NCBI RefSeq assembly: GCF_000473325.1
Contig: NZ_KI421513.1
Location: forward strand, 2,241,217-2,305,216
Reading direction: 5' to 3'
DNA: 64,000 nt
Source: Leisingera caerulea DSM 24564
Lineage (GTDB): Bacteria; Pseudomonadota; Alphaproteobacteria; Rhodobacterales; Rhodobacteraceae
The position numbers were made by a program, and so were the translations under genes. The notes under the pieces are model-generated. The model worked only from the letters and a program-made list of their open reading frames with translations, did not search any database and was not told the origin of the DNA. Below are positions 1-17,381 of the stretch, piece after piece. Every line of letters starts with the position of its first letter. Within the stretch, counting starts at the first letter, position 1.

Positions 1-1030
1 GGTCGCCATGATCCGCGCCGCCCCAGCGCCCGGGCAGATGGCCGATCCAGGGGCGTGCGGTCTTGAAATGGTCCAGGAAAGGCGCCTGGGTGCTCCAGTC
101 GGCAATGCCCGCCAGGTTGATGGCAACGGGCTGGCGCGCGTGTTTACCTGTCAGTTCCGGCACGTCTTCCAGCAAGTCCGTATTAAGTACGGGCAACACC
201 GGATCCTGCGGCAATGCTGCCGGGTCCGCGGGCAGGGCAGCCGTGCGCACACCGCCCCCTTGGGCCGCGGCCCAGGCAATATCCTGCAGCCGTGCTGCCA
301 GCTCTGGCGGCGGCGCGGGATAGGGTTTGCCCCAGCGGTCCTGGAGCCGGTGCGGCAGGCCCGCGGGGCGTTCCCCGGTCAGCACCGCGTATTGCAGCAG
401 CGCCAAATAGTAAAAACCGGTGGCGTTGGGGTGAATGTCATCGGCAAAGACATCGCGGATGCTGGCAAGCCCCGGCATCGTGCCTGCCTTGATCGCCTCG
501 TCCAGCCGCGCCATCGCCTGGCCCGCGGGCAGCAGCTTCACATCGCCGCCGGTTGCAGCATTGACCTCATCCACCACCGCCTGCCAGCGCGGCAGATCCT
601 GTTCCAGCCGCACCCGCCACGGCACATCCGCCCCGTCGTCAAAGGGCACCTCGGCGCCGGTGCCGCTGTTCAGGCTGTGCCAGGTTTCCTGCAGGTAGAA
701 GTCCACATCCGGGTTCGCCGCGTGCGCCAGTTCATAAAACCGCGTCACGGCGCCTTTGGTATCACTCCACTTCAAATGATTGGCCAGGGGTATGGCTTCG
801 GTCACGATCACCGCGTCCGCAGGCTGCCGCAGCCTTTCACGTGAATCAACGCCCTCCGCGGTGGCACTGTGCTGCCAGTTGTAGCTGAGCGGCGCGCCAT
901 TGATGATCTGCGCCTCCACCGTCGTCTCTGCGCGGGTATCCAGCAGCTGCTCCAGCATCTGCGGATTGTCCGGCCCGAACAGCGAATGGCCGACCATCAC
1001 AACAGAGGTGATCAGCGCGTCCAAGTTCAT
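1..1030 (-). CDS. SGNH-like hydrolase with an extra C-terminal domain, 3' end outside the window
   Basis: Partial: 343 residues are readable with no stop before base 1. Residues 1-260 look like an SGNH/GDSL-type esterase: a block I GHSL motif with the candidate nucleophile Ser16, a QETWH motif near 114-118 and a block V DDIHPN motif (Asp197, His200). From about residue 300 a second domain begins (INLAGIADWSTQ, then PWIGHLPGRWGG) that I do not recognise. The ATG overlaps the stop of the preceding hydrolase by 4 bp. I see no signal peptide, unlike its paralogue. It is the last visible gene of the PKS-NRPS operon. Likely acts on an ester or acyl group; the substrate is unknown. Confidence 0.75.
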   Translation of the reverse strand, partial: MNLDALITSVVMVGHSLFGPDNPQMLEQLLDTRAETTVEAQIINGAPLSYNWQHSATAEGVDSRERLRQPADAVIVTEAIPLANHLKWSDTKGAVTRFYELAHAANPDVDFYLQETWHSLNSGTGAEVPFDDGADVPWRVRLEQDLPRWQAVVDEVNAATGGDVKLLPAGQAMARLDEAIKAGTMPGLASIRDVFADDIHPNATGFYYLALLQYAVLTGERPAGLPHRLQDRWGKPYPAPPPELAARLQDIAWAAAQGGGVRTAALPADPAALPQDPVLPVLNTDLLEDVPELTGKHARQPVAINLAGIADWSTQAPFLDHFKTARPWIGHLPGRWGGADHGD

Positions 1031-1965
1031 GCCGCTGCTCTCTCCGCGGCCAGACCGGTACGGGGCAGGTTGAGCACAACCTGCCAGACGATCTGCTGCA
1101 CCTTGGCCGCGGCCTCAGCGCTAAAGGCCTCTGCCGGGCTGCCATCGGCACGGGTCAGCTCATGCGGCAGCCCAACGGGCGAGCGCTGGTACAGAACCGC
1201 AAAATGGGTCAGCGCCACCACATAGGCGCCCAGGTCGTTGATATGGATTGTGTCCAGTTGCCCGTCAGCAGTGCGGGCAAACAGCGATTCACGTGAAGCC
1301 AGGCCCGAGATCTCCCCTGCCTCCGCCGCCCGCGCCACCGCTGCCAGCACCTGACCGCCGGGGATCAGATAAAATGGCTGTTGCGGGTTGCGGCGGCTGT
1401 CCGGCCCCAGCAGCTTGCCGACCCAAAGCGCCTCCAGATCACCGTCAATCCGCTCCAGCCAGCCATCGGGATCATCCAGCCGGTGCCAGGTCTCATAAAT
1501 GTAAAGGCGGGAGTGCGGAACAGCCTCCCGCGCCAGATCCGCCCATTTTTCCAGGTATTTGGCCGCGTCGAAATACTTGATTGCGTCGCGCAGCTCGACC
1601 ATTTCGGTCAGCACCACAGCGCCGTAGTCGCCCGACCTAATGGCTTCCTTCGCATCGCGGAAGGCAGGCGCGCGGTTGGCCGCTTTGAAATCGAGGATGT
1701 CTTCCTCCGGCTCCCAATGCGCCCGGAGAGAGGTGCCGGACCCCAGCTGGCTGTTGTAGCTATGCCCCTGTGGTGCGATCTGTGCCAGCATATGCGGCAT
1801 GTCCGGCCCGACCAGCGAATGACCCAGGTGAAACACCTTCAGCGGCCCCTCGGGCGGGGTCAGCGGCGGCGGCACAGGCACGCTGCGGCTGCGGGTTGCA
1901 AACACCATCAGCCCCAGCGTGGCGGCTGCGGCTCCCAAAGCCAGAAACCCGCGCCGCCCCATCAT
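1027..1965 (-). CDS. SGNH-like hydrolase with Tat-like signal
   Basis: 312 residues. The N-terminus MGRRGFLALG followed by an Ala/Leu-rich stretch resembles a twin-arginine signal or a signal anchor, so the protein is probably periplasmic. Block I is GHSL with Ser50, a YETWH motif lies at 157-161, and block V is DTIH (Asp238, His241). These three landmarks are shared with the next gene downstream, so the two are tandem paralogues. Its ATG overlaps the PPTase stop (ATGA). A role in acylation or deacylation of the operon product or of a surface glycan is inferred from context only. Confidence 0.75.
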   Translation of the reverse strand: MMGRRGFLALGAAAATLGLMVFATRSRSVPVPPPLTPPEGPLKVFHLGHSLVGPDMPHMLAQIAPQGHSYNSQLGSGTSLRAHWEPEEDILDFKAANRAPAFRDAKEAIRSGDYGAVVLTEMVELRDAIKYFDAAKYLEKWADLAREAVPHSRLYIYETWHRLDDPDGWLERIDGDLEALWVGKLLGPDSRRNPQQPFYLIPGGQVLAAVARAAEAGEISGLASRESLFARTADGQLDTIHINDLGAYVVALTHFAVLYQRSPVGLPHELTRADGSPAEAFSAEAAAKVQQIVWQVVLNLPRTGLAAERAAA

Positions 1966-2651
1966 TTGCGCCCCCGGATTTCCGCCGTGGTCATGATCAG
2001 CCCGGCCCCGATCGCGAACCGCCCGCCAACCGCCTCGCCGCGCGCAAACGGCGGCCGGTCGGCGGTGAAAAACGCCAGATACGCGCCCGCCGCCAGATCA
2101 AATTCCAGCTCCATCCCGTCAAAACCGTAGAACGCCCGGCTCAGCGTGTACTGGGCCTTATAGGCGGCTTCCTTGGCGGAGAAGATTACCTTGGCCATTT
2201 GCCCCGGATTGTCCTGGCCCTTCAGCCAAGCCTGCTCCCGGCCGGAGCAAATTGCGGGCAGCAGCTCGTCCTTTAGCGGCGTGTCTTCCTCCACGTCGAT
2301 GCCCAAGGCCCGTATTTCGCCCTCGTGCGCCAGCACCGCCATGGCGCAGCTCTTGGTGTGGGTGATCGAGCCGACCACACCAGCAGGCCAGACCGGCGCC
2401 CGGTCGCTGCCGACCTGCACCGGGGCAGGGCGGATCTGCAGCTGCCGCATCGCCTGATGCACCGCGGACCGCCCGGCGGCGAACTCGTTGCGCCGCTTCT
2501 CGACTGCATTGGGCGACAGCCCCGCGGCTTCGGCCGCCAGGGGCGCGGGGGGAGCGCCCAGCGGATCCGCTCCGGCCAGCGCCACATCGGCGGCAAAAAG
2601 CGGCCGGACCAGGGCCAGCCGCTCTGCCAGTTTGCTGTTGGTCTCTGTCAT
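1962..2651 (-). CDS. 4'-phosphopantetheinyl transferase, Sfp/EntD type
   Basis: 229 residues, the usual size for the family. Activates carrier proteins by moving phosphopantetheine from CoA to the conserved serine. Motifs seen: GSITHTKS at 94-101, GIDVEE at 117-122 (Asp119 and Glu121 as magnesium ligands) and FSAKEAAYKA at 157-166 with Glu161. It overlaps the NRPS stop and the next gene's start by 4 bp each. Its partners are evidently the PKS carrier domain (Ser1806) and the NRPS carrier domain (GGHSL at 1440-1444) of the same operon. Confidence 0.93.
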   Translation of the reverse strand: MTETNSKLAERLALVRPLFAADVALAGADPLGAPPAPLAAEAAGLSPNAVEKRRNEFAAGRSAVHQAMRQLQIRPAPVQVGSDRAPVWPAGVVGSITHTKSCAMAVLAHEGEIRALGIDVEEDTPLKDELLPAICSGREQAWLKGQDNPGQMAKVIFSAKEAAYKAQYTLSRAFYGFDGMELEFDLAAGAYLAFFTADRPPFARGEAVGGRFAIGAGLIMTTAEIRGRK

Positions 2652-5600
2652 CCAGCCCTTGCCCTGCGGTTTGCCCGCATGGCCCGCCGTTTCGACATGG
2701 TGTCGGCGCGGTCCGGACCTGCGGTTTCCTGCGGCTGTTTTTTCGTATTTGCCGGGGTGCCTGCAAGCCCTTCGATATGCGCCGCCAGCCCCGCCAGCGT
2801 CGGGAAGCGGAAGATATCGGTGATCGACAGCGCCGCTGTGCCCAGTTCCGCGCGCAGCTCCCGGTGCGCCTGCACCGCCAGCAGAGAATGGCCGCCCAGA
2901 GCAAAGAAGTTGTCCTGCGCGCCGATGCCGCTGACGCCCAGGATGCGGCTCCAGACCGTAGCGATCCTGGCCTGGGCGCCCGCATCAAGCGGCACCGCCG
3001 GGGCGGCTGCAGTGTGCGCAGGCTGCGGGTCCGGCAGCGCCTTGCGGTCGATTTTCTTGTTCGGCGTCAGCGGAAAAGCCTCCAGCGTGACGATATGCGC
3101 AGGCACCATGACTTCGGCCAGCCGGGCCGCCAGTGCCTTCTTCAGGGCTTCTTCCTGCACCGGGGCTGAGGCAGTGATGTAGCCCGTCAGTTGCTCCGCC
3201 CCTGCCGCGCCGCGCGGCACCACCACGGCGCCGGTCACACCGGGTTGCGCCGCCAGCGCGGCTTCGATCTCACCCAGCTCGATCCTCTGGCCGCGGATCT
3301 TCACCTGATGGTCGGTGCGGCCCAGGAAGATCAGGCTGCCATCTTCCGTCCGGCGAACCAGATCGCCGGTGCGGTAAAGGGGCGTTGCTGCGAACGCGGC
3401 GTTAACGAAGCGTTCAGACGTCAGCTCCGGCTGCTGCCAGTAGCCCGCGGTGACACCCGCACCGCCAATATACAATTCACCGGGCGCTCCCGCGGGGACG
3501 GGCGATTGCTTTTCGTCCAGCACGTAGACCTGCGTGTTGGAAATCGGCGTGCCGATCCCGGCTGTCCCTGCGGGGACACCGCTGATTGTCTCCACCGCCG
3601 ACCAGATCGTCGTTTCGGTCGGACCGTACATGTTGTGGATACAGGCCCGCGTGGCTTCGCGCAGCGCCTGCACCAGATCGCCCGGCAGCGCCTCGCCGCC
3701 CACCAGCAGGTGCTGCAGCTGCGCAAGGCAGGCGCTGGTGTCAGCGTCCGCGGCAATCATCCGCGCCATCGACGGTGTGCACTGCATGTGGCTGACCCCG
3801 TGCCGCACGATTTGCGCCGCCAGGGAGAAGTCATCCGCCGCCAGCCCTCGCGGCGCATTCGACAGGCGCAGCACCTCGGCCAAGGGTTTCAACCCCTCTA
3901 GCACCACTTCCGGCGCGATGCCGTAGTCGATCAGGCAGGCAACCTCATCCACGCCGATCCGCTTCAGCTGTTCGACCCGCTGGCAAGCGTCCCCGATGGT
4001 GCCGAACAACCCGGAGTCCTCGAAATAACGCTCAAACGCGAAGTCGAGGATCGCCTCCAGCTCCTCCTCCGACAGCATCCCCAGATCCATCTCGAAGGGG
4101 TTGTTCACACCCTCCGGTTTCTTGAAGGCGGGGAAGGCCCAGGCGTATTGCTTGATCAGCCCGGCGGCAGAGCGCAGGTAGTCCTTCATCGGCTCCCGCG
4201 CCACCCGGCGGGCTTCCTCGCGGGTGCCGGCCAGATAGCTGTGCAGCATCAGCGTAACCTTGAAATCCGCGGGGTCGTGGCCCGCCTCGCGCAGGGCGTC
4301 GTGGTAGATGCGGATCTTGCCCGCGACCTCCTCGATGCTCTGGCCCAGCAGGTGAGTCAGCACGTTTGCCCCGATCGAACCCGCCTCGCGCCAGGTTTCC
4401 GGGTTGCCTGCGGTGGTAACCCAGACCGGCAGCTCCTTGGAGACCGGGCGGGGCTGGGTCAGGACACTGTGCTCACCGCCGTCCTTGCGCGGAAAGGCAA
4501 CCTCCTCGCCGCGCCACAGCTTGCGCACGGTTTCAATGGCGTCAAACATTGCGGGCTTGTTGGCGGGCGGCGTGTTTTCTGGCCGCAGGATGAAATCGTC
4601 CGGCTGCCAGCCGGAGGCAAAGCCGATCCCGGCGCGCCCTGCGGTCAGGTTGTCGATCACCGCCCATTCCTCTGCAATCCGCGCCGGATGGTGCAGCGGC
4701 GCCACGCAGGAGCCGGACCGCACGCCGATGTTCTGCGTCACCGCTGCAACTGCGGCGCCGGTCACAGAAGGGTTCGGGTAGGGGCCGCCAAAGGCATGGA
4801 AGTGCCGCTCCGGCGTCCAGACTGCGTTGAACCCGTGCTGGTCTGCGAATTTGGCGCCTTCCAGCAGCAGATGATATTTCTGCGGTCCGGGCCCGTCGTC
4901 ATTGCCCCAATAGAACAGGTTGAAATCCATCTTGCGGCCGCTGAGCGCCACCGGCCCCTTCGACAGCTCCAGCCGGCTTTCGTCACTCGACAGCACCAGC
5001 TTCAGCCCGCGCGAGAGCGTCCAGAACAGCTCCAGCACCGAGATGTCAAAGCTGAGGCTGGTGACCGCCAGCCAGGCATCGCCTTCCTGAAACGGGATGC
5101 GGGTGTCCATGCCGGTGAAAAAGTTCGAAACGTTGGCGTGGGTGACCATCACCCCCTTGGGCAGTCCGGTGGAGCCGGAGGTATAGATCAGGTAAGCCAG
5201 ATCGCTGCCGGTGGCGCCGCCGTCAACGTTCTCTGTATCTGTCCCGGCAGAGACAGTTTCGATTTCCAGCACCGGCGCGTCCGAGGCTGGCAAACTGTCC
5301 GCCAGCGAACTTTGCGTCACGATCAACTTTGCCTGGCTGTCCTTGATGTAATGCGCAATCCGCTCGGCGGGGTAGGCGGGATCCAGCGGCACATAGGCGC
5401 CGCCGGCCTTCATCACCCCCAGCGCGGCAACCACCAGTTCCGGCGCGCGGCGGATGTGGATACCGACATGCACACCGGGTTTTACGTTCATTTCACGCAA
5501 GCGGCGGGCCACGGCATTGGCGCGGGCGTTGACGTCTGAATATGTGTAGCTTTGGTCCTCGAACACCAGCGCGGTGGCGTCCGGGGTTTTTGCGGCCTGT

Positions 5601-7213
5601 GCCTCAAATGCGGCGTGGATGGTCAGATCCGCAGGGAAGTCCGTTGCGGTTTGGTTCCAATCCTCCAGCAGCAGCTTGCGTTCTGCATCCGGCAGACTTG
5701 GCAGCTCTGCCACAGGGCGGCTGCCGTCCTCTGCAATGGTGCTCAGCACCAGTTCCAGCCGGGCGGCGAGCAGCGCTGCGGCGCCGGGTGTCAGGGCGGC
5801 TTTATCGCAGTGCAGCGCCATGATGCCACCGGTCAGGGAAACAGTGGCAGCGCAGCCCTCAACCGCGGCGTCGCGGCCCAGCATCAGGCCGAGGCCGGGA
5901 ACCTCCAGCGCCGAAATCTCCGGTGCGCGGGCCACCAGATCTTCGGCAAAGCCGCCGGATTTCCGCGCTCTGCCAATCTCTTGCGCGGCACGCTCGACAG
6001 TGGCCGCGACGCTGTCCCGCCGCCGGACCTGCAAGGGCACCCAAGATGAGATCAACCCCGGCAGCGCCTCCATCCCCTCCACAGACAGCGCCACATCGCC
6101 GGTTTCCGCGCCGCTGCTGAGCAGGGCAAAGGCAAGCGCGGCAGCGGCGGCTTGCTCTTCGCTGAGACCCGCAGGCAGGGCGACGTCCCGGCGGCTGAAG
6201 CCGCTGCCGCCCGCATCAGACGCCAGCGGCATCCGCACCGGCTGCATCGCTGCAAGCCGCTGGCGCCAATGGTCTTCAACTCCTTGGACCGCGGCGAGGC
6301 GGGTGGTGAGCGCCCCGGCCTCTGCTGCGGTCAGGGAGGGAACCTTGTAACCGGCTGCGGCCAGTTTGGACACGTCCAGCGGCCGGCCCGAGGGTGCGGT
6401 CAAGCGCGAGAGCGTGAGGGCGCCGTCGGCGGTTGCAACTTTAATGCTAGCTTTACTGCGCTCGAGCACGGTGCCCGGCTCGCCGCTGCCCTCCGCAATC
6501 TCCGCACCGCCGGCCAGCACAACGGCCCCGCCGATCCGCAGCTTGGCGGCGCACATCGGGTTCCAGTAGCCGCCGGTGTCCAGCGCCCGCACCAGCCGGG
6601 CGAGTTCAGCCGCAGGGCGGTTGAGATCGAGCATCCCGCCGGCTGCCGGTCGGTCGGATTTCCGGAACAGGCGGCGCTGGCTCAAGTCTTGTTTCTGCCG
6701 GTTCAATTCCCCGGTTTCCAGCTGGGTGACAACCTCGCCAAAGCTGTCCATCGCCGCCGCGTAGCATTTAGAGTTAAGGCTGAAGGCGGTCTCATCCCCC
6801 GCCACATCAAACATCCGCTGGGCCAGAATATCGCCCTCGTCCACGCCGCCCTCGATAAGGTGCCAAGTGATGCCGTGCTGCGCCTCGCCGTTGATCAGCG
6901 CCCAGTTCGGGGTATTGAGGCCCGCGTAGTGGGGCAGGGGGCCGTCGTGGAAATTGACCGCGCCCTTGGCGGCCAGGGCCAAGACCTCATCGGGGATCAC
7001 GGTGAGGTTGGCAATCGACAGCAGCCAGTCAAAGCCACCAGTCAGGTCTGCGGGTTTTTCCAGCAGCGTCAGCCCCTTGTCCGCGGCCCAGGCACGGATA
7101 TCGGCGTCCTGAGAGACCACCGCCCGGATCTGGTGGCCGCGGGCCAGCAGCGCATCGGCGCAGCCGATCAGAAGGGATTCATTGCCGATCAGGGCACAGG
7201 TGAATGCGGTCAT
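2648..7213 (-). CDS. NRPS: formyltransferase / residual condensation / adenylation with inserted luciferase-like monooxygenase / carrier
   Basis: 1521 residues. Residues 1-290 form a formyl-THF formyltransferase domain with the Asn87, His89, Asp125 triad (NFH and VDEGD). Residues 330-520 resemble only the rear of a condensation domain; I find no HHxxxDG, but the usual C-A junction LPDAERKLLLEDWN is there. The adenylation domain starts near 530: YTSGSTG core at 677-683, FDISVLELF at 722-730, NMYGPTETT at 1194-1202, RTGD at 1281-1284, final Lys in NKKIDRK. Between its A4 and A5 motifs, about 762-1115, sits a luciferase-like FMN monooxygenase of the MupA/Atu3671 type. A PCP with LGGHSL follows at 1439-1444. 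There is no thioesterase, so the chain must pass to the PKS. Pocket residues read D-I-L-Q-L-G-M-I-W-K, close to the glycine code. Confidence 0.93.
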   Translation of the reverse strand: MTAFTCALIGNESLLIGCADALLARGHQIRAVVSQDADIRAWAADKGLTLLEKPADLTGGFDWLLSIANLTVIPDEVLALAAKGAVNFHDGPLPHYAGLNTPNWALINGEAQHGITWHLIEGGVDEGDILAQRMFDVAGDETAFSLNSKCYAAAMDSFGEVVTQLETGELNRQKQDLSQRRLFRKSDRPAAGGMLDLNRPAAELARLVRALDTGGYWNPMCAAKLRIGGAVVLAGGAEIAEGSGEPGTVLERSKASIKVATADGALTLSRLTAPSGRPLDVSKLAAAGYKVPSLTAAEAGALTTRLAAVQGVEDHWRQRLAAMQPVRMPLASDAGGSGFSRRDVALPAGLSEEQAAAAALAFALLSSGAETGDVALSVEGMEALPGLISSWVPLQVRRRDSVAATVERAAQEIGRARKSGGFAEDLVARAPEISALEVPGLGLMLGRDAAVEGCAATVSLTGGIMALHCDKAALTPGAAALLAARLELVLSTIAEDGSRPVAELPSLPDAERKLLLEDWNQTATDFPADLTIHAAFEAQAAKTPDATALVFEDQSYTYSDVNARANAVARRLREMNVKPGVHVGIHIRRAPELVVAALGVMKAGGAYVPLDPAYPAERIAHYIKDSQAKLIVTQSSLADSLPASDAPVLEIETVSAGTDTENVDGGATGSDLAYLIYTSGSTGLPKGVMVTHANVSNFFTGMDTRIPFQEGDAWLAVTSLSFDISVLELFWTLSRGLKLVLSSDESRLELSKGPVALSGRKMDFNLFYWGNDDGPGPQKYHLLLEGAKFADQHGFNAVWTPERHFHAFGGPYPNPSVTGAAVAAVTQNIGVRSGSCVAPLHHPARIAEEWAVIDNLTAGRAGIGFASGWQPDDFILRPENTPPANKPAMFDAIETVRKLWRGEEVAFPRKDGGEHSVLTQPRPVSKELPVWVTTAGNPETWREAGSIGANVLTHLLGQSIEEVAGKIRIYHDALREAGHDPADFKVTLMLHSYLAGTREEARRVAREPMKDYLRSAAGLIKQYAWAFPAFKKPEGVNNPFEMDLGMLSEEELEAILDFAFERYFEDSGLFGTIGDACQRVEQLKRIGVDEVACLIDYGIAPEVVLEGLKPLAEVLRLSNAPRGLAADDFSLAAQIVRHGVSHMQCTPSMARMIAADADTSACLAQLQHLLVGGEALPGDLVQALREATRACIHNMYGPTETTIWSAVETISGVPAGTAGIGTPISNTQVYVLDEKQSPVPAGAPGELYIGGAGVTAGYWQQPELTSERFVNAAFAATPLYRTGDLVRRTEDGSLIFLGRTDHQVKIRGQRIELGEIEAALAAQPGVTGAVVVPRGAAGAEQLTGYITASAPVQEEALKKALAARLAEVMVPAHIVTLEAFPLTPNKKIDRKALPDPQPAHTAAAPAVPLDAGAQARIATVWSRILGVSGIGAQDNFFALGGHSLLAVQAHRELRAELGTAALSITDIFRFPTLAGLAAHIEGLAGTPANTKKQPQETAGPDRADTMSKRRAMRANRRARAG

Positions 7214-8235
7214 TTCTGCTCCTTTGCAAACGGAGAAGGGGTGCGCGTTTCCGAAGATGGTGTGCGGCGCGGCGCAAAGAGCGCACGCAGGCTGTGCAGG
7301 CAGAGATCGCGCAGGAACTGCGGCGGATCCGCCTGCGGCTTTTTCTGGATCAGGCGGCGCAGGCCATAGATCAGGCTGCCGCTGATGCGGGCCAGCGTCG
7401 CGGCGGCGGCATAGGCGCGGCCGTGGTTTTTGACAAAGTAGTGCAGGCGCGAGTCGAACCAGTAGTGCGGCGTGCGCCGCCAGCCCTTCATGCCGGTGGA
7501 GGCAGAGCCGATGTGCGCCACTTCGCTGGCCGGCACATAGTGGGTGCGCCAGCCCTCGCGGGCGGCCCGGCGGCAGAGGTCGGTTTCCTCGAAGTAGAGG
7601 AAAAAGGTCTCGTCAAAGCCGCCCACGGCCTCGATCACCTCGCGGCGGATCATCAGGCTGGCGCCGGCGGTCCAGTCGACCTGCACCTCGCCCTGCGGCA
7701 TCTCCATCGCCACGACCCAGGGCCTCAGGAGGCGGGTAAAGACGCCCGTGCGCACGCTGGCCTCGAATTCCCCGGCGATGGAGGGGAAGCGGAAGGCGGT
7801 GCGGTGCGGTTCGCCATCGGTGCCGCGCACGTAGGACCCGGCAAGCCCTGCGCCGGGATGCTCCAGCAGGAAGTCGCGCAGGGTGCGGATGGTTTCTCCC
7901 TGCACAAAGGCGTCGGAGTTCAGCAGGTAATAGAACTCCGGCGCGCTGCCGTCCGCGAGGCCCGCCTGGATGCCGATGTTCATCCCTGCGCCAAAGCCGC
8001 CGTTGACCGGCGAGGCCAGCAGCCGCAGCCGCCCGCTGTCCAGCCAGCCGCGGGCCTCTGCCCCGGCGCGGATCTGGTCAAAGGAGCCGTCGCCGGAGCC
8101 GTTGTCGATGATCAGCAGCTCGCCCGGCAGCTCTTCCATCTCGTGCAGCGCCGCTTCTGCCGCCTGCAAGGTCATCTCCGGCGTGCGGTAGTTCAAGAGG
8201 ATGGTGAGGATGCGCTGCTGGCTCATGACAGTCAC
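7210..8235 (-). CDS. glycosyltransferase family 2
   Basis: 341 residues from a GTG that overlaps the PKS stop (GTGA); an ATG three codons in (8226) is an alternative start. GT-A fold inverting transferase of the rhamnosyltransferase-like GT2 group: an N-terminal NYRTPEMT start, the nucleotide-binding DNGSGDGS motif near 45-52, a central acidic pair and a FEETDLCRR motif typical of the acceptor and base region. Its stop overlaps the NRPS start by 4 bp. Lying between the PKS and NRPS genes, it probably glycosylates the assembly-line product or links it to a glycan. Donor sugar unknown. Confidence 0.88.
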   Translation of the reverse strand: MTVMSQQRILTILLNYRTPEMTLQAAEAALHEMEELPGELLIIDNGSGDGSFDQIRAGAEARGWLDSGRLRLLASPVNGGFGAGMNIGIQAGLADGSAPEFYYLLNSDAFVQGETIRTLRDFLLEHPGAGLAGSYVRGTDGEPHRTAFRFPSIAGEFEASVRTGVFTRLLRPWVVAMEMPQGEVQVDWTAGASLMIRREVIEAVGGFDETFFLYFEETDLCRRAAREGWRTHYVPASEVAHIGSASTGMKGWRRTPHYWFDSRLHYFVKNHGRAYAAAATLARISGSLIYGLRRLIQKKPQADPPQFLRDLCLHSLRALFAPRRTPSSETRTPSPFAKEQK

Positions 8236-11200
8236 TCCGCGGCCTGGGCATAGCGGGACCGCCCGGCAGCGGCATCGGCGGCGTCCAGGCGGGCCTTCAC
8301 GCCTGCCGCCAGCACGCTGACGTTCGGCACCAGCACCATGCTGTCGTGATCGCCCGGCACCTCGGCCACTTCGGTGGCCGGGGCCCAGCGGGTCCAGTTG
8401 TTGTCGTCAAACACATACTCGCGCTCGCCGCTGACCCAATTTCCGCCGGAGACCTGCCATTTGCGGTCCAGCGGCGGCCGGAACAGGGTAAGCGGGCCAT
8501 GCCAGGGCCGGAGGTCATAAGCCGCGACCGCGGCGCGGAAGGCCAGTTCGATCTTGCGGTTGTTGAACTCCGGCCGGACGCCGGTCTCCGCCGGGCTGGC
8601 GCGGCGTTTCTCAAACTCCCAGGCGATGCGGTTCCGGGCCCATTCGGCCAGATACCCCACACCCTTGCGGCGCAGTTCCGCCAGCTTGATCAGTGCCTTG
8701 TCGGGGCGGCTGAGGGCCGGACGCACCGGCAGCGGCGTGTCCAGCAGGACCAGCGCGGCGGTCTCCTGGCCCTGGTCCTTCAGCTGCTGCGCCATCTCGT
8801 AGGCGGTGATGCCGCCGCCGGAGAAGCCGCCCAGCAAATAGGGCCCCTGGGGCTGGATCTGGCGGATTTCGGACAGGCAGCTGCGGGCGGCATCCTCAAT
8901 CCGGCTGTGCGGGGCGGCGTCGCCGACCAGCCCCTTGGCCTGCAGGCCATAGACCGGGCGGTCCTTGCCGACCTGCAGCGCCAGGTGGCGCAGGTTCAGC
9001 ACATTGCCGAACATGCCCGCCACCAGAAAGAAGGGCCGCCGCCCGGTGCCGTCGCCGGGATGCAGCTGCACCAGATGGGTGTATTGCGGCGGCTCCTCCG
9101 CGGTTTGGGGGGTGTCCCCCGGTTCCGCCGCAACCCCGCCGCCGGTGCGGGCGATGATCCGCTCTGCCAGCGCAGCGACGCTGGGCGCCTCAAACAGCAC
9201 CGACAGAGGGAATTCCACGCCAAAGCCGCGTTTCACCTGCGCAAACAGCCGCACCGCAATCAGCGAGTGACCGCCGAGGTCAAAGAAACTGTCCTCAATC
9301 CCCACCTGCGACACGCCCAGAAGCGCGGCGAAGAGCTTGGCCAGTTCCTCCTCAACCGGGTTGCGCGGAGCGATGTAATCGGTGTCGAGCTGCGGGCGCT
9401 CAAAGGTCTGCGCCTCACCCGCGGCAGGCGCAGCAGCCTGTGCCGCCTGAGCAATCAGCGCGGGCAGATCCAGCGAGGAGACCACCACCTGCGGCAGACC
9501 GGTGGCGAGCGCGCGGGCCAGGGCGTCGCCGCCTTCCTCCGCTTTGATTCCATTGGAGATGTTCAGTTGCAGGCGGCGTTCCTCCGGCGACAGCGGCTGC
9601 GCGCTGCTGGCAGGCTCCAGCCCCAGTTCCGCCGCACTGGCGTCGGCCTCAGCCGCTGCGGCAGCGGTGTCAAAGCCAGAGGCCAGCCGCTGCATCCGGA
9701 AGCCTTCGATCCGGGCCAGCACATTGCCGTCCGTGTCGGTCAGCGTTACGTCAAACATCGCGGAGGCGCTGTCCGGCGCCACGGCCAGCCGCACGTGGCT
9801 GAAGATATTCGCGGTAAGCGGCGCGAAGACGCGGATGGTGCGGTATGAGACCGGCACCCAGAGGGCATCTGCCTGATACCCCGGGATCAGCTGCATCGCC
9901 CAGCCGGTGGCCAGGTCCATCAGGCCGGGATGCAGCAGAGTGCCGTCCTGCGCCGCAGCCTCTGGCAGGGAGAGTGCGGCGATCCCTTCGCCGTCCCCAA
10001 GGGCAGCGCGCTCCAGAACATGCCAGCGCGGGCCAAAGCGCAGGTGAGCCTCTTGCGGAGACTGCAGGCGCCCGCCTGCTGGCGCCTGCTCCTCCGGGCA
10101 TCGGGTGAAAAACTTCTGGAGGTTGAGTGCGGCGGGGCATTCTGCCGCCGCCGCGGAGGCCAGCATTGCCTGACAATGTAAAGAGTAACCATTTGTACAC
10201 GCCGAGTAAACAAACAGTTCATAACCATTTTCTTTAGCTTCTAGCTTAACCAGAAGTTTCTTGGGATCGCCTTCCAATACAACCATAGGGCGCATAAAGT
10301 AGAGATCGCGGATTTCGAATGGCCCTTGGGTACCCGCTGCCGCCAGTGCCTCGGCTGCCATTTCGATATAGCCGGTGCCGGGAACCAGGGCGGTGCCGTC
10401 TGCGGTGCGGTGCTCATCCAGCAGCCAGTCGGCGGTGCTGAAGCAGGGCATGAAGATGCGGTTGCCAGCGGCGTCAAATCCCTGCTGCTGCAGCAGCGGC
10501 TGCGGGCAGGGCTCTGGCGTGCTGGCGGCCGCGCCGCTGTTTCGGGCACTCATGGCATCGGCGGCCATGCCTGTGTCTGCCCAGACGCCCCAGTCCACAG
10601 CCACGACGCGGGTCTGCCCGCCTGCGCGCTGTTTGGCCCAGGCGTTGAGGTATTCGTTGGCAGCAATGTAGTCCACCTGGCCGGCTGGCCGCGTTACGGC
10701 GGAGGAAGAGGAGAACAGCACCAGCAGCTCCAGGCTGCCGTCGGGAAACACCGTGTCCAGGGCGCGCAAGCCGCTGACTTTGGGGGCCAGAACGCGGGCG
10801 ATCCGGTCCTCGTCCTTGGCCAGCAGCGGGCCGTCGTCGATGACGCCGGCCCCGTGGATCACCCCGGTGACCGGGCCGTTCGCGGCTTCGGCCTGCTCCC
10901 TTGCGGTGCGCAGCTCGCCCGCGTGGCAGACGTCGGCGGCCAGCGGCAGCACGGTGCCGCTGCCGGTTTCCTCCAGCGCTTTGACCGCGCGGATGCGCCG
11001 GGCGGTGCGGTTGGCCGGGCTGTGGCTGCTGAGATACCGGTCCCAGCTGTCGCGCGGCGGCAGGCCCTCGCGCGAGATCAGCGTGATCTTGGCCCCGCAG
11101 TCCCGCATCAGATGACCGGCAATCGCCAGGCCGATGCCGCCATAGCCGCCGGTGATCAGGTAATGGCCGCCCTGTTTGAAAGGCGGTGTTTCCGGTGCCG

Positions 11201-14200
11201 GCAGGGGCTGCGGGCGCCAGGCGAGTTCGAACCGCTTGTCCCCGCGCCAGGCGGCGGAAAGGTTTGCCGGCTCCGACAGCAGCTCTTCCAGCAGGCGGGG
11301 AGTGATGTCGTTGTCCGCCGGTTTTCGGGCAAGCAGGCCCCGCGGCGCCTGCGGCAGTTCGATGTCCACGGTGGTGCAGGTCAGCCCCGGCAGTTCGCGC
11401 GGGATCACGCCCAGGGGGCCAGCGATCATGGCCTTTTCCGGGTAGGGCAGGGCCTCGTCCCGGACCTGCGCGGCGCCGGTCGTGAAGACTGACAGATGCA
11501 CCGGTCCGGGCAGATCGGCGTTACCCAGCTCCTGCGCCAGGGCGGTCAAAGCGTGGAAGCCCATCTCCAGATTGCGGTCAAAAAAGGAGGAGCCGGGGCG
11601 GAAGGTTTCCCCTTCTGTCACCAGCCAGAAATGGGCGATGCGGTCCGGCAGCAGCCCGGCCTCTGCCAGATCCCCCAGCAGGGCGCCATAGGCGGCGCGG
11701 CCCTGTTCGGGCGGCAGGATATAGGTGGTCGGCGACAGCTGCGCATAGGTGTCGCCTGCGCGCACCCGGGCGACGGCATGGCCTGCGGCCTCCAGCCGGT
11801 CTGCGGCGCGGGCAGCATGGCCGGTCTCGTCCTCGAAAATCAGCCAGTTGTGCGGCTCCTGGCCCAGCTCCTGCTGCACATCCAGCGCGCAATCGGCCAG
11901 ACGCGGGCGCCAGGCGGGGCGGTAGCCCCAGTCCTTAAGGTCGCTGTGGCGGGCTGGCGCGGGGTCTTCCTCAAGCGCCGGTTTGCCCGGTTCGATGAAA
12001 TAGCGGCTGCGCTGGAAGGCGTAGCCGGGCAGCGGCAGGCGGTTGCGGCGCGCTTCGCCCCAGATCTGCGGCCAGTCGGCCTCGACCCCGCAGGCCCAGA
12101 GCCGGCCGATGACGCCGAAGAAGTAGCTGTCGTCCATCACCTGCTGATCCTGGTGGCGCAGGGAGCTGAGCACCTGGCCCTGTTTCACTGCCGGCGACAT
12201 CTGCGCCAGCGCGCTAAGCGCCTTGCCGGGGCCGACCTCCAGGAACACGCGGCCGGGGGTCTTGGCGAGGGTCTCGACGCAATCGGCATAGCGCACTGTG
12301 TTGCGCAGCTGGCCCACCCAATACTCGGCGCTGGTGGCCTGTTCCGCCGTCAGGGCCGTGCCGCTGCGGTTGGAGATCACCGGCAGGTTCGGCGCGGACA
12401 GGGGCAGGGAGCGGATGAAATCGCCATACTCCTGCAAGATGCCGTCCAGCATCCGCGAATGGGCGGCAATGTCGATCTGGATGCGCTGATGCTCCACCTC
12501 GCGCGCAGTCAATTCGGCGGCCAGCCGATCAAGCGCGTCCTGCGGGCCGGAGACTGCGGTGAGCGAGGGGGCGTTGACGCTGGCAATGTCCAGATCATCG
12601 CCGATGATGGCCTTGACCTCCGCCAGCGGGAGCGCAATCGACAGCATCCCGCCCGCAGGCACGGTATCAAACAGCCGGCCGCGCAGGAGGACAAGGTCGA
12701 TACAATCCTCAAAGGACATAACACCGGCCAGGCAGGCGGCGGTGTTTTCGCCCATGGAATGGCCGACCAATGCGGCAGGCCGCACGCCCCAGCTGATCCA
12801 CAGCTGCGCCAGCGCATATTCCACGATCATGATCAGCGGCAGCTGCACCGAGGGTTGCTGCAGGCGCGCATTGGCCGTGTCCTCCTCGCCGTCGTCCGGC
12901 AGCCAGAGGGCGCGGATGTCGTAGTCGAGGCTTTTTTGCAAATGCTCCAGCCCGCGGTCCATCCAGTCTGCAAAAACCGGCTCGGTCTCATACAGGTCGC
13001 GCGCCATTCCGGCATATTGCGCGCCGCCGCCGGGGAACATGAACACCACCTCCGGCGCATCGCCCAAGCGGTCGTGGGTGAAGATCTTGCGCGGGTCGTT
13101 TTCCTGCAGCAGCTCAATGGCCTCCGCCGCGGTTTCCGCCACCAGCACCCGCCGTTTGGCAAAGCCGCGGCGGCCTTCCTTGAGGGTGTAGGCGACGTCG
13201 GCCAGATCGGCCTCCGGGTTGGCCTTCAGGTACTCCGCCAGTGCCTGGGTATTGGCATCCAGCGCGGCCTTGGACTGGCCGGACACGCAGAGGATCTGGA
13301 ACGGGAAATCGCTTTCTTCCGAGGCTGCACGCTCCGGTGCTTCCTCCAGGATCACATGGGCATTGGTGCCGCCGACGCCCAGCGAGTTGACGCCTGCCCG
13401 CCGCGGGCCCTTGTGAGGCGTCCAGGGGGTGAGGGCGGAGTTCACCTTGAACGGCGAAGTGTCGAATTCAATGGCCGGGTTCGGCGCCTCATACCCCAGC
13501 GAGGGCGGGATTTCCCTGTGGTGCAGCGCCAGAGCGGTCTTGGTCAGGCTGGCGACGCCCGCCGCCGTGTCCAGATGGCCGATGTTGGTCTTGACCGATC
13601 CGATCCGGCAGTAGCCTGTGTCCTGCGTGCTGGCGCGGTAAGCATCGGTCAGGGCGGACACCTCGATCGGGTCGCCCAGATAGGTGCCGGTGCCGTGGCA
13701 TTCGACATAATCAATGGTCTCTGCCGGGGTGCCTGCCGCTGCCAGCGCCTTTTGCACCGCTGCCGACTGGCCGGCGACGGAAGGCGCCAGATAGCCCGCC
13801 TTGTCCGCGCCGTCGTTGTTGATGGCGGAGCCCTTGATGACGGCCCAGATGTGGTCGCCATCGGCAATCGCATCCTCCAGCCGCCGCAGCGCCACCGCAC
13901 CGGCGCCGGAGCCGAAGACGGTGCCTTGCGCCCGGTGGTCAAAGGCGTGGCAATGCCCATCGGGCGACAGGATCTCGTTTTCCTTATAGAGATAGCCGCG
14001 CCCCTGCGGCAGCTCGATGGTGACACCCCCCGCCAGCGCCATGTCGCACTCGCCCTCGCGCAGGGCCTTGCAGGCGTAATGCACCGCCACCAGCGAGGTG
14101 GAGCAGGCGGTCTGCACGTTCACAGAAGGCCCCTTCAGGTCGAACACATGGCTGACGCGGGTCGACAGGAAGTCCTTGTCATTGCCGGTGTGGCGCAGCA

Positions 14201-14681
14201 GGAACATGCCCACGTCATCGACCAGGGCGGGGTTGGAGCAGATGTTGAAATAGAAATAGCTGCCCATGCCGCAGCCTGCGTAAACGCCGATGGGGCCGTT
14301 GATGCTTTCCGGCGGATGGCCCGCGTTTTCCATCGCGCCCCAGGCGACTTCCAGAAACTTGCGGTGCTGCGGGTCGAGGATGGCGGCCTCTTTCGGGCTG
14401 AAACCGAAGAACTCGGCATCAAACTCGTCAACCCCCTGCAGCCGGGCCGCGGCGGGCACATAATTCGGATCGGCCAGAGCAGAGGCGCGCTCACCGTTTG
14501 CCAGCAGCGTCTCGCGGTCTAGAACCTCAATCGATTCGATCCCAGCGCGCAGGTTCTGCCAGAACGCCCCGGCAGAGCCCGCGCCCGGCACCGTCACCGA
14601 CAGCCCGACTATGGCAATATCACCGGGCTTTTTCTCTTCGGCAGCGCCCGCCGCTGCGGAAATCCCATCGTGCATCGTCAA
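8232..14681 (-). CDS. type I polyketide synthase, KS-AT-KR-DH-ACP-TE
   Basis: 2149 residues from a TTG; an ATG at 14675 with AGG upstream is the likelier start. KS at 20-450 with Cys193 (TACSTS), His329 and His369. AT at 545-840 with Ser642 (GHSMGE); the AAHS at 739-742 does not settle malonyl versus methylmalonyl. KR structural and catalytic parts about 920-1380, with GGYGGIG at 1178-1184, a VIDD motif at 1280-1283 suggesting B-type stereochemistry, Tyr1338 and Asn1342. DH at 1410-1665 with His1424 and Asp1589. ACP at 1775-1845 with Ser1806. TE at 1880-2120 with Ser1954 (GGFSGGG), Asp1981 and His2112. No enoyl reductase. DH after KR is not the usual order. First gene of the operon; it should extend and release the chain begun by the NRPS. 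Confidence 0.93.
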   Translation of the reverse strand: MTMHDGISAAAGAAEEKKPGDIAIVGLSVTVPGAGSAGAFWQNLRAGIESIEVLDRETLLANGERASALADPNYVPAAARLQGVDEFDAEFFGFSPKEAAILDPQHRKFLEVAWGAMENAGHPPESINGPIGVYAGCGMGSYFYFNICSNPALVDDVGMFLLRHTGNDKDFLSTRVSHVFDLKGPSVNVQTACSTSLVAVHYACKALREGECDMALAGGVTIELPQGRGYLYKENEILSPDGHCHAFDHRAQGTVFGSGAGAVALRRLEDAIADGDHIWAVIKGSAINNDGADKAGYLAPSVAGQSAAVQKALAAAGTPAETIDYVECHGTGTYLGDPIEVSALTDAYRASTQDTGYCRIGSVKTNIGHLDTAAGVASLTKTALALHHREIPPSLGYEAPNPAIEFDTSPFKVNSALTPWTPHKGPRRAGVNSLGVGGTNAHVILEEAPERAASEESDFPFQILCVSGQSKAALDANTQALAEYLKANPEADLADVAYTLKEGRRGFAKRRVLVAETAAEAIELLQENDPRKIFTHDRLGDAPEVVFMFPGGGAQYAGMARDLYETEPVFADWMDRGLEHLQKSLDYDIRALWLPDDGEEDTANARLQQPSVQLPLIMIVEYALAQLWISWGVRPAALVGHSMGENTAACLAGVMSFEDCIDLVLLRGRLFDTVPAGGMLSIALPLAEVKAIIGDDLDIASVNAPSLTAVSGPQDALDRLAAELTAREVEHQRIQIDIAAHSRMLDGILQEYGDFIRSLPLSAPNLPVISNRSGTALTAEQATSAEYWVGQLRNTVRYADCVETLAKTPGRVFLEVGPGKALSALAQMSPAVKQGQVLSSLRHQDQQVMDDSYFFGVIGRLWACGVEADWPQIWGEARRNRLPLPGYAFQRSRYFIEPGKPALEEDPAPARHSDLKDWGYRPAWRPRLADCALDVQQELGQEPHNWLIFEDETGHAARAADRLEAAGHAVARVRAGDTYAQLSPTTYILPPEQGRAAYGALLGDLAEAGLLPDRIAHFWLVTEGETFRPGSSFFDRNLEMGFHALTALAQELGNADLPGPVHLSVFTTGAAQVRDEALPYPEKAMIAGPLGVIPRELPGLTCTTVDIELPQAPRGLLARKPADNDITPRLLEELLSEPANLSAAWRGDKRFELAWRPQPLPAPETPPFKQGGHYLITGGYGGIGLAIAGHLMRDCGAKITLISREGLPPRDSWDRYLSSHSPANRTARRIRAVKALEETGSGTVLPLAADVCHAGELRTAREQAEAANGPVTGVIHGAGVIDDGPLLAKDEDRIARVLAPKVSGLRALDTVFPDGSLELLVLFSSSSAVTRPAGQVDYIAANEYLNAWAKQRAGGQTRVVAVDWGVWADTGMAADAMSARNSGAAASTPEPCPQPLLQQQGFDAAGNRIFMPCFSTADWLLDEHRTADGTALVPGTGYIEMAAEALAAAGTQGPFEIRDLYFMRPMVVLEGDPKKLLVKLEAKENGYELFVYSACTNGYSLHCQAMLASAAAAECPAALNLQKFFTRCPEEQAPAGGRLQSPQEAHLRFGPRWHVLERAALGDGEGIAALSLPEAAAQDGTLLHPGLMDLATGWAMQLIPGYQADALWVPVSYRTIRVFAPLTANIFSHVRLAVAPDSASAMFDVTLTDTDGNVLARIEGFRMQRLASGFDTAAAAAEADASAAELGLEPASSAQPLSPEERRLQLNISNGIKAEEGGDALARALATGLPQVVVSSLDLPALIAQAAQAAAPAAGEAQTFERPQLDTDYIAPRNPVEEELAKLFAALLGVSQVGIEDSFFDLGGHSLIAVRLFAQVKRGFGVEFPLSVLFEAPSVAALAERIIARTGGGVAAEPGDTPQTAEEPPQYTHLVQLHPGDGTGRRPFFLVAGMFGNVLNLRHLALQVGKDRPVYGLQAKGLVGDAAPHSRIEDAARSCLSEIRQIQPQGPYLLGGFSGGGITAYEMAQQLKDQGQETAALVLLDTPLPVRPALSRPDKALIKLAELRRKGVGYLAEWARNRIAWEFEKRRASPAETGVRPEFNNRKIELAFRAAVAAYDLRPWHGPLTLFRPPLDRKWQVSGGNWVSGEREYVFDDNNWTRWAPATEVAEVPGDHDSMVLVPNVSVLAAGVKARLDAADAAAGRSRYAQAAE

Positions 14682-14936
14682 TACCTGACCCCACTGGCCC
14701 TTCGCAAACAGCCCGGCACGCCGCAGCCAGTCCGCATTGTGAAGATGGCAGGGCCCGCCGGACGGGTTGTTTATCTGATGCCGGGGTTCTCCCCGGCGGC
14801 TGGCCCGGCCCTGCGGCTTAGATCCCCATCTGCTCCGCGGGGCCGGAAGAACTCTCGTTTATCTTCGTCAATCCATGCGGCTGTCCTAAGGACGCATTGT
14901 GTCAATTTCGGCCGGAAAAGCGGAAAGATTGCGGCA
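14682..14936 (-). promoter_or_regulatory. probable control region of the PKS-NRPS operon
   Basis: A 255-bp gap upstream of the PKS with no convincing gene. Read on the minus strand it has a TTGACA (14905-14900) followed at once by the near-palindrome GTCCTTAGGAC (14893-14883). A 7-bp GC hairpin with a TTCT loop lies at 14780-14797. I cannot find a clear -10 box at 17 bp. The upstream polymerase gene is on the same strand, so read-through is possible. Confidence 0.35.
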
Positions 14937-16400: not shown

Positions 16401-16593
16401 AGGCCAGTTTCCCCTCGTTCCCCGGTTGTTGTGTCAAAGTTTAACGGTTGCCGCAGGCGCTGTCCCGCGGATTTGCAAGAACCGGTAAACGGTGTGCAGC
16501 GATGCCACGCTGGTTGGCGGGCGGTCCGTCCTGCGCTGGCCTGAGACGGACGGCGGATGTATCAGGGATCCGGGCAGAAACCGGGGGTGTGCT

Positions 16594-17346
16594 TTGTATT
16601 TCGAATTCAATGGCCGCCGGGTGGCGGTGAACATGCCCGGCCGGGCGCTGCTGGAGGCGGAGATCCGCGCCAGGTTCAAGGCCCGCCAGGGCTTTGCGCT
16701 GGCCACGGTCAACTTGGATCACCTTGTCAAGCTGGCGCAGTCGCCTGCGTTCCTGGCCGCCTATCAGGCGCAGGACCTGGTGGTGGCGGACGGGCGCCCG
16801 ATTGTCTGGCTGTCCCGGATCGCGGGCCGCCCGGTGGAGCTGATGCCGGGCTCGGACCTGGTGCTGCCCTTGTGCCGCCTGGCGGCGGAGGCTGGGGTTC
16901 CGGTGGCGCTGGCGGGCAGCACGGAAGAAGCGCTGGCGGACGCCGCGGCAGCGCTGACTGCCGAAGTGCCGGGCCTGGACATTGCCTGGTGCCACGCGCC
17001 TTCGGGCCGGTTCGATCCGGAGGGCGAGGAGGCGGACCGGATCTTGCACCGGCTGGATGAGACCGGCATCGGGTTGTGCTTTCTGGCGCTGGGCGCGCCC
17101 AAGCAGGAGCGCCTGGCGCAGCGCGGCCGCCGCCTGGCGCCGGGCACCGGGTTTGCCTCCATCGGCGCCGGGCTGGATTTCCTTGGCGGCCATCAGAAGC
17201 GCGCCCCCGCCTGGGTGCGGGCAATCGCGATGGAGTGGCTGTGGCGGGCGCTGTCCAGCCCGTCCCGCCTGCTGCCGCGCTATGCCAAATGCCTGGCGGT
17301 CCTGCCCGGTCAGATCCTGAAGGCGTGGCGGATCCGCGTGCGCTGA
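16594..17346 (+). CDS. WecG/TagA/CpsF family glycosyltransferase
   Basis: About 250 residues. These enzymes add a sugar (for example N-acetylmannosaminuronic acid in WecG) to a polyprenyl-linked acceptor. Family landmarks: the ATVNLDHLVKLAQ segment, DGRPIVW, LMPGSDLVLPL, a GAPKQE motif, and FASIGAGLDFLGG near the end. The frame is open from a GTG at 16492, but the first 34 residues do not look like the family. I therefore prefer the TTG at 16594, which places FEFNGRRVAVN at the N-terminus as in homologues. Divergent from the polymerase-like gene. Confidence 0.85.
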   Translation: MYFEFNGRRVAVNMPGRALLEAEIRARFKARQGFALATVNLDHLVKLAQSPAFLAAYQAQDLVVADGRPIVWLSRIAGRPVELMPGSDLVLPLCRLAAEAGVPVALAGSTEEALADAAAALTAEVPGLDIAWCHAPSGRFDPEGEEADRILHRLDETGIGLCFLALGAPKQERLAQRGRRLAPGTGFASIGAGLDFLGGHQKRAPAWVRAIAMEWLWRALSSPSRLLPRYAKCLAVLPGQILKAWRIRVR

Positions 17347-17381
17347 GACCAGCTGGAACAGTGGCCGGAGGGCGGCATTTT

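Follow-up and report, generated by a model that had tools for sequence, protein, structure and literature searches.

Here we analysed a 64,000-nucleotide stretch of the Leisingera caerulea DSM 24564 genome (contig NZ_KI421513.1; G000:C7:2241217-2305216, the window in what follows), whose left part carries a minus-strand operon for a formylating nonribosomal peptide synthetase (NRPS) and a single-module polyketide synthase (PKS). Judged by its genes, this operon is the centre of a Wzx/Wzy-type exopolysaccharide (EPS) locus of about 28 kb. A functional link between the PKS/NRPS pair and the EPS is highly probable. We slightly favour the operon being the non-sugar-building part of the Wzx/Wzy pathway, making a C4 N-formylamino acyl unit, possibly hydroxylated, that would decorate or join the EPS. 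The domains, catalytic residues, glycine code and conserved physical link to EPS machinery are all supported by the data below.

In transcription order, the operon reads PKS, GT2-family glycosyltransferase (GT), NRPS, phosphopantetheinyl transferase (PPTase), a 312-residue SGNH protein, an 834-residue protein and a second GT2. All six junctions are 4-base overlaps, five of them ATGA and one GTGA, and the genes are translationally coupled in layout, as one minus-strand unit. An earlier note, made from the letters of the window alone, had described a minus-strand operon with NRPS, PKS, PPTase, glycosyltransferase and two hydrolases; Pfam, the gene calls and the overlaps bear this out. Its limits of 1-14936 do not hold, since the operon continues left of the window with the remainder of the 834-residue gene and the GT2 gene (L004:12693-16030), and a Wzy-type gene on that strand precedes the PKS by 255 bases.

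Table 1. Features of the operon and of the surrounding EPS locus. Positions with the prefix L004 are those of locus record L004; all others are window positions.
Feature	Position	Strand	Remarks
exoY-type initiating transferase	L004:6410-7207		PF02397 above Pfam cut-off
Tyrosine-autokinase-like protein	L004:7283-8218		NCBIfam match below cut-off; no Pfam match
PCP-like protein	L004:8246-9580		NCBIfam match below cut-off; no Pfam match
Wzx flippase	L004:9714-11111		PF13440 above Pfam cut-off
GT4 glycosyltransferase	L004:11069-12526		Left of window
GT2, last gene of operon	L004:12693-13529		Left of window
834-residue protein, whole gene	L004:13526-16030		SGNH-like N-part, glycanase-like C-part
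834-residue protein, 5' part	1..1030	-
SGNH hydrolase/acyltransferase-like protein, 312 aa	1027..1965	-	N-terminal RR-containing signal/anchor-like segment
Sfp-type 4'-phosphopantetheinyl transferase	1962..2651	-	Pfam 4PPT_N and ACPS
NRPS, 1521 aa	2648..7213	-	Pfam Formyl_trans_N/C, AMP-binding, Bac_luciferase, AMP-binding_C, PP-binding
Luciferase-like monooxygenase in NRPS	3872..4924	-	NRPS residues 764-1114, inside A domain
Formyl_trans_N match in NRPS	6755..7006	-	NRPS residues 70-153, with N87, H89, D125; Pfam E 1e-15
GT2-family glycosyltransferase	7210..8235	-	Between PKS and NRPS; Pfam Glycos_transf_2, Glyco_tranf_2_3
Type I PKS, 2149 aa	8232..14681	-	Pfam order KS, AT, KR, DH, ACP, TE
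Wzy-type polymerase/O-antigen ligase-like membrane protein	14937..16400	-	Pfam Wzy_C E 1.7e-5, 25.1 bits, under curated cut-off 31.7
WecG/TagA/CpsF glycosyltransferase	16492..17346	+	Pfam E 6.5e-45; TIGR00696 98.6 bits, cut-off 69
GT2 of EPS locus	17511..18566	-	Pfam; conserved in relatives
GT2-like glycosyltransferase of EPS locus	18458..19600	-	Pfam Glyco_tranf_2_4; relative at equivalent place in G025 (L041)

The genes on both sides of the operon are those expected of EPS assembly (Table 1), with the polymerase, polysaccharide co-polymerase (PCP) and kinase calls resting on sub-threshold profile matches plus conserved position. The statement of the earlier note that no exporter lies inside is correct for the operon; among its neighbours are a flippase, polymerase, PCP and initiating transferase. 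To the right, TamB and Omp85 genes start beyond the two GT2 genes (beyond 19600). A 468-residue minus-strand open reading frame (ORF) at 16441-17847 was set aside, having no Pfam match; the real gene there is on the plus strand, at 16492-17346. An Rfam scan of the window gave no matches at gathering thresholds.

The link to EPS genes recurs in relatives. We compared the best 80 of 573 related loci from named genomes, a sample of the nearer relatives that spans Leisingera, Phaeobacter, Sulfitobacter, Roseovarius, Shimia, Loktanella, Paracoccus, Gemmobacter, Cypionkella and others. Among the 61 well-covered loci (at least 24 kb, Rhodobacterales), a PKS was found in 61, a relative of the GT2 between the synthases (GT2a) in 60, PPTase in 57, PCP in 44, Wzx in 40 and Wzy in 40, GT-type queries being able to cross-match other GTs. 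At least one of Wzx, Wzy, exoY, PCP, kinase or outer membrane polysaccharide export (OPX) genes was present in 58 of the 61, and Wzx or Wzy in 57; with the short loci included, the counts are 75 and 67 of 80. At the position directly upstream of the PKS, defined by a same-strand match that ends no more than 1200 bases away, stands Wzx in 24 of the 61, Wzy in 22 and neither in 15. There are thus two upstream arrangements, both of them polysaccharide genes. As a control, five stretches (window 26-64 kb, L040, and L029-L031, which are PKS/NRPS loci) were searched with the EPS queries and gave no match at E 1e-4; four of them (L040, L029-L031) did match the NRPS and PKS queries, so the search itself worked. 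NRPS and PKS identities to the window covary over 76 loci (r 0.91). One copy, at 56% identity, is in a record titled Hydrogenophaga pseudoflava NBRC 102511 (L083), a betaproteobacterial name; this may be mislabelling, contamination or transfer.

Homologues of the operon proteins were taken as the best 120 of 1531 for the NRPS, of 1245 for the SGNH protein and of 964 in a third listing. Among the best 120 NRPS homologues, those at 82-89% identity that carry names are Leisingera. The NRPS is full-length, at 77-88% identity, in all 20 other genomes of the genus, and also in 3 of 16 other family genomes compared (one with an internal TGA, one in two pieces). Because full-length matches recur across the genus, the arrangement is not chance. 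In G029 (L038), PKS and NRPS matched in several pieces, from sequencing errors or decay.

Across a family sample of 198 genomes, the part of the NRPS that spans formyltransferase and C-domain remnant was found in 69, the 834-residue SGNH-glycanase protein in 71 and both in 64. Of the 69 genomes with the NRPS, 64 thus carry the SGNH-glycanase, as against 7 of the 129 that lack the NRPS (Fisher p 1.5e-37, uncorrected for kinship). Two genomes, G480 and G486, have two matches each to the N-terminal part of the NRPS. We tested 30 genomes hand-picked from the 68 other NRPS-positives, using 48 flippase rows (E about 1e-20 or better) and leaving out 23 weaker ones. In 25 of the 30, Wzx lies within 25 kb of the NRPS, as against a rough expectation of about 2% per genome, and the SGNH-glycanase lies within the same distance in 25.

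The NRPS comprises a formyltransferase, a condensation (C) domain remnant, an adenylation (A) domain with an inserted monooxygenase (MOX), and a carrier (T), and no release domain was found in it. Formyltransferase residues were aligned to the formylation domain of the linear gramicidin synthetase LgrA. N87, H89 and D125 are kept in all 125 aligned NRPSs (the window protein, 119 homologues and five from fetched loci), where the carrier Ser is also invariant. We read the segment between formyltransferase and A domain as a probable remnant of the C-domain C-lobe. The HHxxxDG motif is absent from 120 of 120 homologues and no condensation-domain Pfam match was obtained, which leaves the NRPS without a functional upstream condensation domain. 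As in LgrA, an N-terminal formyltransferase is followed by A domain and carrier with the catalytic N-H-D aligned; unlike LgrA, there is a C-lobe remnant between formyltransferase and A domain, and a MOX is inserted in the latter. At the other end, the NRPS closes with a basic tail (window 2651-2700, minus strand) in which R1509, R1510, A1511, M1512, R1513 and R1516 are each kept in 121-125 of 125 sequences, following a linker that is not conserved. From this pattern, the tail probably serves to dock the NRPS onto the PKS or some other protein.

The MOX lies between motif a4 (FDIS, residue 722) and motif a5 (YGPTE, residue 1196) of the A domain. It matches TIGR04020, the MupA/Atu3671-family luciferase-like monooxygenase domain, at 471.5 bits (curated cut-off 244.45) over profile positions 1-340 of 341. 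Among solved sequences (the best 60 of 298), the sole monooxygenase is PuwE of the puwainaphycin pathway (6ket; 348 bits, NRPS residues 761-1116), which is a separate chain of 362 residues, whereas the MOX here is an inserted domain. The same position between a4 and a5 is occupied in the MOX-bearing glycine modules of myxothiazol and melithiazol (MtaG/MelG type). In that type a thioesterase (TE) follows and a C-terminal amide is left, whereas the module here is a formylating start module with no active C domain, no peptide preceding it and no TE. In the myxothiazol and melithiazol pathways, the MOX hydroxylates the alpha position of glycine, and the carbinolamide gives an amide and a glyoxylyl thioester, while in solanimycin B, where the MOX is at a8-a9, the alpha-hydroxyglycine is retained (PMC10204066; papers are cited by PubMed Central identifier). 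Alpha-hydroxylation by a MOX of this kind is reported to act on carrier-bound glycine (PMC11342130, PMC10204066). An NADPH-dependent FMN reductase-like gene at window 31234-32019, some 15 kb right of the operon, could feed reduced flavin to the MOX; nothing links it to the locus.

The A-domain code of the window NRPS is DILQLGMIWK, found in 98 of the 125 aligned sequences, with DILQMGMIWK in a further 13; 12 of the 125 rows have a residue other than K at position 517, perhaps through a shift in the alignment. Code positions and motif names were set from motif anchors, with the exact match to a published code as cross-check. The published code is common to four glycine-activating domains with MOX, which are not named in the survey section concerned and whose MOX is said to cleave the glycine backbone (PMC12283262). 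Because the MOX sits between a4 and a5 and the code is DILQLGMIWK, the predicted starter is glycine, formylated and probably alpha-hydroxylated. Glycine loading and formylation by the NRPS are well supported as predictions from residues and code, and an alpha-hydroxylation step should probably be added to the product scheme.

In the PKS, the Pfam order is ketosynthase (KS), acyltransferase (AT), a KR-like N part, ketoreductase (KR), dehydratase (DH), acyl carrier protein (ACP) and TE, with KR preceding DH, and no enoylreductase match was obtained in this single module. The catalytic residues are present: Cys/His/His in KS, GHSMGE in AT, S-Y-N in KR, His and Asp in DH, Ser in ACP, and Ser/His in TE. 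They were taken from an alignment of the window protein with 13 full-length relatives; a fourteenth, L028, is cut before ACP and TE, both of which were found in its continuation. The AT motif IAAHS, which we take to be neither the usual malonyl nor the usual methylmalonyl signature, does not settle the extender, so malonyl is an assumption. A single malonate extension, reduced and then dehydrated, would yield a C4 enoyl unit. The nearest solved chains are 8xju and 8xjy, named only "Polyketide synthase"; entry 8xjz also has a chain named "Peptide synthetase".

These results agree with much of the earlier note, which had proposed an initiating formyl-glycine NRPS without release domain and a single PKS module with one: the invariant N-H-D residues and the prevailing code fit its starter, and the PKS has the domains it listed, with their catalytic residues. 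Its suggested 4-formamido-2-butenoyl unit, possibly oxidised by the monooxygenase, stands as to the starter. Since the MOX is inserted in the A domain and belongs to a kind reported to alpha-hydroxylate glycine, the plain unit probably leaves out one step.

On the reading we favour, the PPTase would activate both carriers. The NRPS would load glycine and formylate its nitrogen, and the inserted flavin monooxygenase would hydroxylate the alpha-carbon. The PKS would then condense this starter with one C2 unit, probably malonyl, and reduce and dehydrate it to a C4 enoyl unit that bears the N-formylamino group and possibly a hydroxyl. Release would fall to the PKS thioesterase, and the likeliest acceptor would be a sugar on the lipid-linked EPS repeat that the nearby glycosyltransferases assemble. 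Wzx would flip and Wzy polymerise the decorated repeat, and the SGNH and SGNH-glycanase proteins may trim or edit the polymer. That the NRPS acts before the PKS is what we infer, with help from one distant locus, in G319, where the PKS directly follows the NRPS in transcription order; this gene order therefore supports NRPS before PKS.

The G319 locus (L040) comes from a class sample of 337 genomes, in which TIGR04020 passes 1e-60 in ten: five of the family, including the genome studied here, and five others. Of these five others, G319 has the same module, its PKS having the same order KS-AT-KR-DH-ACP-TE (DH end, ACP and TE at L040:18257-19900) and an epimerase, GT4 and aminotransferase adjacent. 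The remaining four, G248, G338 and G337 (20-kb stretches) and G343 (a 3.4-kb contig), have assembly lines of other kinds, with matches limited to the MOX or to generic domains. Downstream of the G319 PKS are a separate frame with an FkbM methyltransferase match and frames of 488, 1309 and 326 residues without Pfam match.

The module is also borne on plasmids. Eight of 15 listed plasmid records were fetched, of which seven are annotated; the eighth, from Rhizobium grahamii, is without annotation and has the PKS. Plasmid copies occur in Paracoccus marcusii, P. liaowanqingii, Parasedimentitalea, Ruegeria (two), Shinella and Aminobacter. All seven annotated records show a flippase and/or sugar transferase near the module, including those of Shinella and Aminobacter, which belong to another taxonomic order; in these two, PKS and NRPS are divergently oriented and no GT lies between the pair. 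Five of the seven records have an annotated PPTase. In L138 (Ruegeria sp. SCSIO 43209), the place of the PPTase in other loci is taken by a transposase and a short hypothetical gene.

The two hydrolase-like proteins of the operon have no Pfam match. The AlphaFold model of the 312-residue protein (pLDDT 88.8) gave two Foldseek matches at E <= 0.001, DUF4886 4i8i (TM 0.54/0.63) and SGNH 4s1p (0.40/0.64), with modest TM-scores; weaker matches (E 1.3e-3 to 2.8e-3) were to CE2/CE3 carbohydrate esterases and the acyltransferase SsfX3, among unrelated folds. S50, D238 and H241 are invariant in 28 sequences. Among its best 120 homologues, the protein is 95-96% identical to L. caerulea records. The 834-residue protein was modelled through a 97% identical homologue, P0128 (AlphaFold; pLDDT 79.0, pTM 0.59). 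This model matched 7bxd (titled only Ca_00815) and the GH44 xyloglucanase 2yjq at E <= 0.001, and more weakly GDSL-like 4q9a, CE3, GH5 and GH10. Its GHS and D-x-x-H residues, E555 and E750 are invariant in 28 sequences. From the model, we read the protein as a putative SGNH domain and glycanase in one chain, and such a combination would fit an acyl-bearing polymer; unexpectedly, no signal peptide is apparent on the protein.

The PPTase is one of two PF01648 matches in the genome, the other being at G000:C7:955373-955636, so that it might act on further NRPSs of the strain as well. Elsewhere in the genome, an NRPS frame of 1322 residues (G000:C4:34082-35512) has counterparts in several other Leisingera and could, as a guess, be the indigoidine synthetase of Leisingera JC1/Y4I.

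The cluster itself has been seen before, reportedly by Martens et al. in 2007. A 2016 account describes a cluster of PKS, glycosyl transferase, NRPS and phosphopantetheinyl transferase, the same gene set as in the window, as 'conserved amongst roseobacters' with its product not identified, and attributes it to a 2007 study; its passage on the cluster makes no tie to an EPS locus and mentions no formyltransferase, MOX insertion or glycine code (PMC5014874). The earlier note could name no matching pathway, in keeping with this orphan status, and a known named pathway was set aside here because natural-product NCBIfam models score far below their cut-offs. For Phaeobacter inhibens T5, the PKS is given as Inhi_1972 and the NRPS as Inhi_1974, in a cluster filed as secondary metabolism, and for strain DSM 17395 the tags are c04930 (PKS) and c05350 (NRPS) (PMC4062626). 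We suspect that the PKS tags of two strains are swapped in that sentence, as the DSM 17395 tags look non-adjacent and the T5 tags adjacent. In the open-access literature, six P. inhibens locus tags of the cluster match only in PMC4062626, and no statement placing this PKS/NRPS in an EPS locus was found in the text available, Martens et al. 2007 being outside that search; the available portion of PMC4359443 yielded nothing on the cluster.

A chromosomal Wzx/Wzy module of P. inhibens around exoY has been described, with unusual glycosyltransferases, no OPX in the module (a homologue is elsewhere) and no sugar-modification genes detected; exoY is up with algae and most of the module unchanged or down (PMC10984933). 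The words "polyketide" and "peptide synthetase" do not occur in the main text of that paper. In the related genome G367, the NRPS is about 10 kb from exoY in one EPS module, and that module resembles the published one in being a Wzx/Wzy module at the chromosomal exoY. From G367, rather than from a P. inhibens genome, we infer that the PKS/NRPS may belong to the EPS module of PMC10984933.

Because the operon lies inside an EPS locus, its product is likely a polymer component and not a free small molecule. Several observations weigh against this reading or limit it. No OPX gene was found in L004 or in the 80 related loci with the one query used, from Aminobacter, and three of the 61 well-covered loci (L083, L089, L091) have no EPS machinery gene by the queries used. 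Five of the 30 genomes have no Wzx within 25 kb: flippase matches of G396 and G403 are on other contigs, G417 has none, and the nearest in G390 and G190 are 0.25 and 1.7 Mb away, the G190 locus nonetheless having exoY, kinase, PCP and Wzy. The counts in 198 genomes are not phylogenetically independent. No PPTase is annotated beside two plasmid copies, L054 and L138. The KR cofactor motif, GGYGGIG in the window, departs from GGxGxxG in three Hyphomicrobiales PKSs (L052, L053 and L055, GGLGDLA or GGLGELA) and in Paracoccus L051 (GGLGGIA); despite the retained S-Y-N residues, reduction appears doubtful there and the product may differ. Among the scanned Leisingera genes, none is a transferase known for acyl transfer to polysaccharide, and the PKS TE could simply hydrolyse its product. 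Attachment and product are both predicted from the genes. We therefore regard covalent decoration of, or incorporation into, the EPS as evenly balanced, and a retained N-formyl-alpha-hydroxyamino C4 unit as the exact product is rather doubtful.

A free molecule, such as a signal, antibiotic or metal chelator, could instead be made beside the EPS genes, hydrolysed by the TE and lost by diffusion or through an unlinked exporter. FbnE, a flavin-dependent monooxygenase probably of the same family as the window MOX, lends this some weight. The alpha-hydroxycarboxylate chelators of fabrubactins are proposed to be its products (PMC12971057), and the cluster has been filed under secondary metabolism (PMC5014874, PMC4062626). 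Such a fate is nevertheless unlikely, as the Wzx/Wzy linkage is kept across genera, in different gene orders and on plasmids, and no siderophore receptor, efflux pump or resistance gene is among the scanned genes of the locus, a set short of every ORF. A siderophore by likeness to FbnE was set aside; one NRPS module was seen in the locus, and FbnL/FbnM (Dmaq) genes were not searched for. The earlier note had the free product glycosylated by the GT2 between PKS and NRPS, and a relative of this GT2 does stand between the synthases in 58 of the 61 well-covered loci. Shinella and Aminobacter manage without a GT at that place, and the several further GTs together with Wzx/Wzy point to a polymer. 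We consider glycosylation of a free product very unlikely, and the EPS setting makes a polysaccharide component the likelier fate.

Two further schemes keep the polymer and change what is attached to it. If the MOX acted as in myxothiazol, the hydroxylated N-formylglycine would break, formamide would be lost and the glyoxylyl thioester extended, giving a polymer with a reactive C4 aldehyde or oxo acid. The insertion site is that of cleaving MOX modules (PMC10204066), and the code is that of MOX-bearing glycine domains said to cleave the backbone (PMC12283262). Formylating a nitrogen only to discard it would be wasteful, and solanimycin B retains its alpha-hydroxyglycine, though with the MOX at a8-a9 (PMC10204066), so that we hold cleavage to be quite improbable. 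The PKS, with or without the NRPS, might also build a lipid-like anchor or primer for the polysaccharide in place of a side-chain substituent. There are precedents: the fatty-acid-synthase-like RkpA is proposed for a lipid anchor in rhizobial K-antigen (capsule) loci, and Pks13 shows with trehalose that the TE of a PKS can form an ester with a sugar. For making a lipid, however, a single module that has no enoylreductase match and starts from formyl-glycine is ill suited, and this is the scheme to which we give least credence.

New here are the EPS-pathway placement, the glycine/MOX code and the spread of the module; the cluster itself was already a known orphan. More broadly, a dedicated formyl-NRPS/PKS line in Alphaproteobacteria may build a C4 N-formyl(alpha-hydroxy)amino acyl unit covalently into EPS, the module of PKS, NRPS and usually PPTase being set into otherwise different EPS loci, chromosomal and plasmid-borne; we advance this tentatively, as somewhat short of an even chance. 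For the roseobacter orphan cluster, there would now be a place to seek the product, in the polymer rather than in culture extracts. The module would also be a candidate for the sugar-modification step that went undetected in the P. inhibens chromosomal EPS module (PMC10984933). If true, decoration of a polysaccharide by such an assembly line would bring together two kinds of biosynthesis that are not usually joined, and would bear on biofilm, attachment to algae and the chemistry of polymers.

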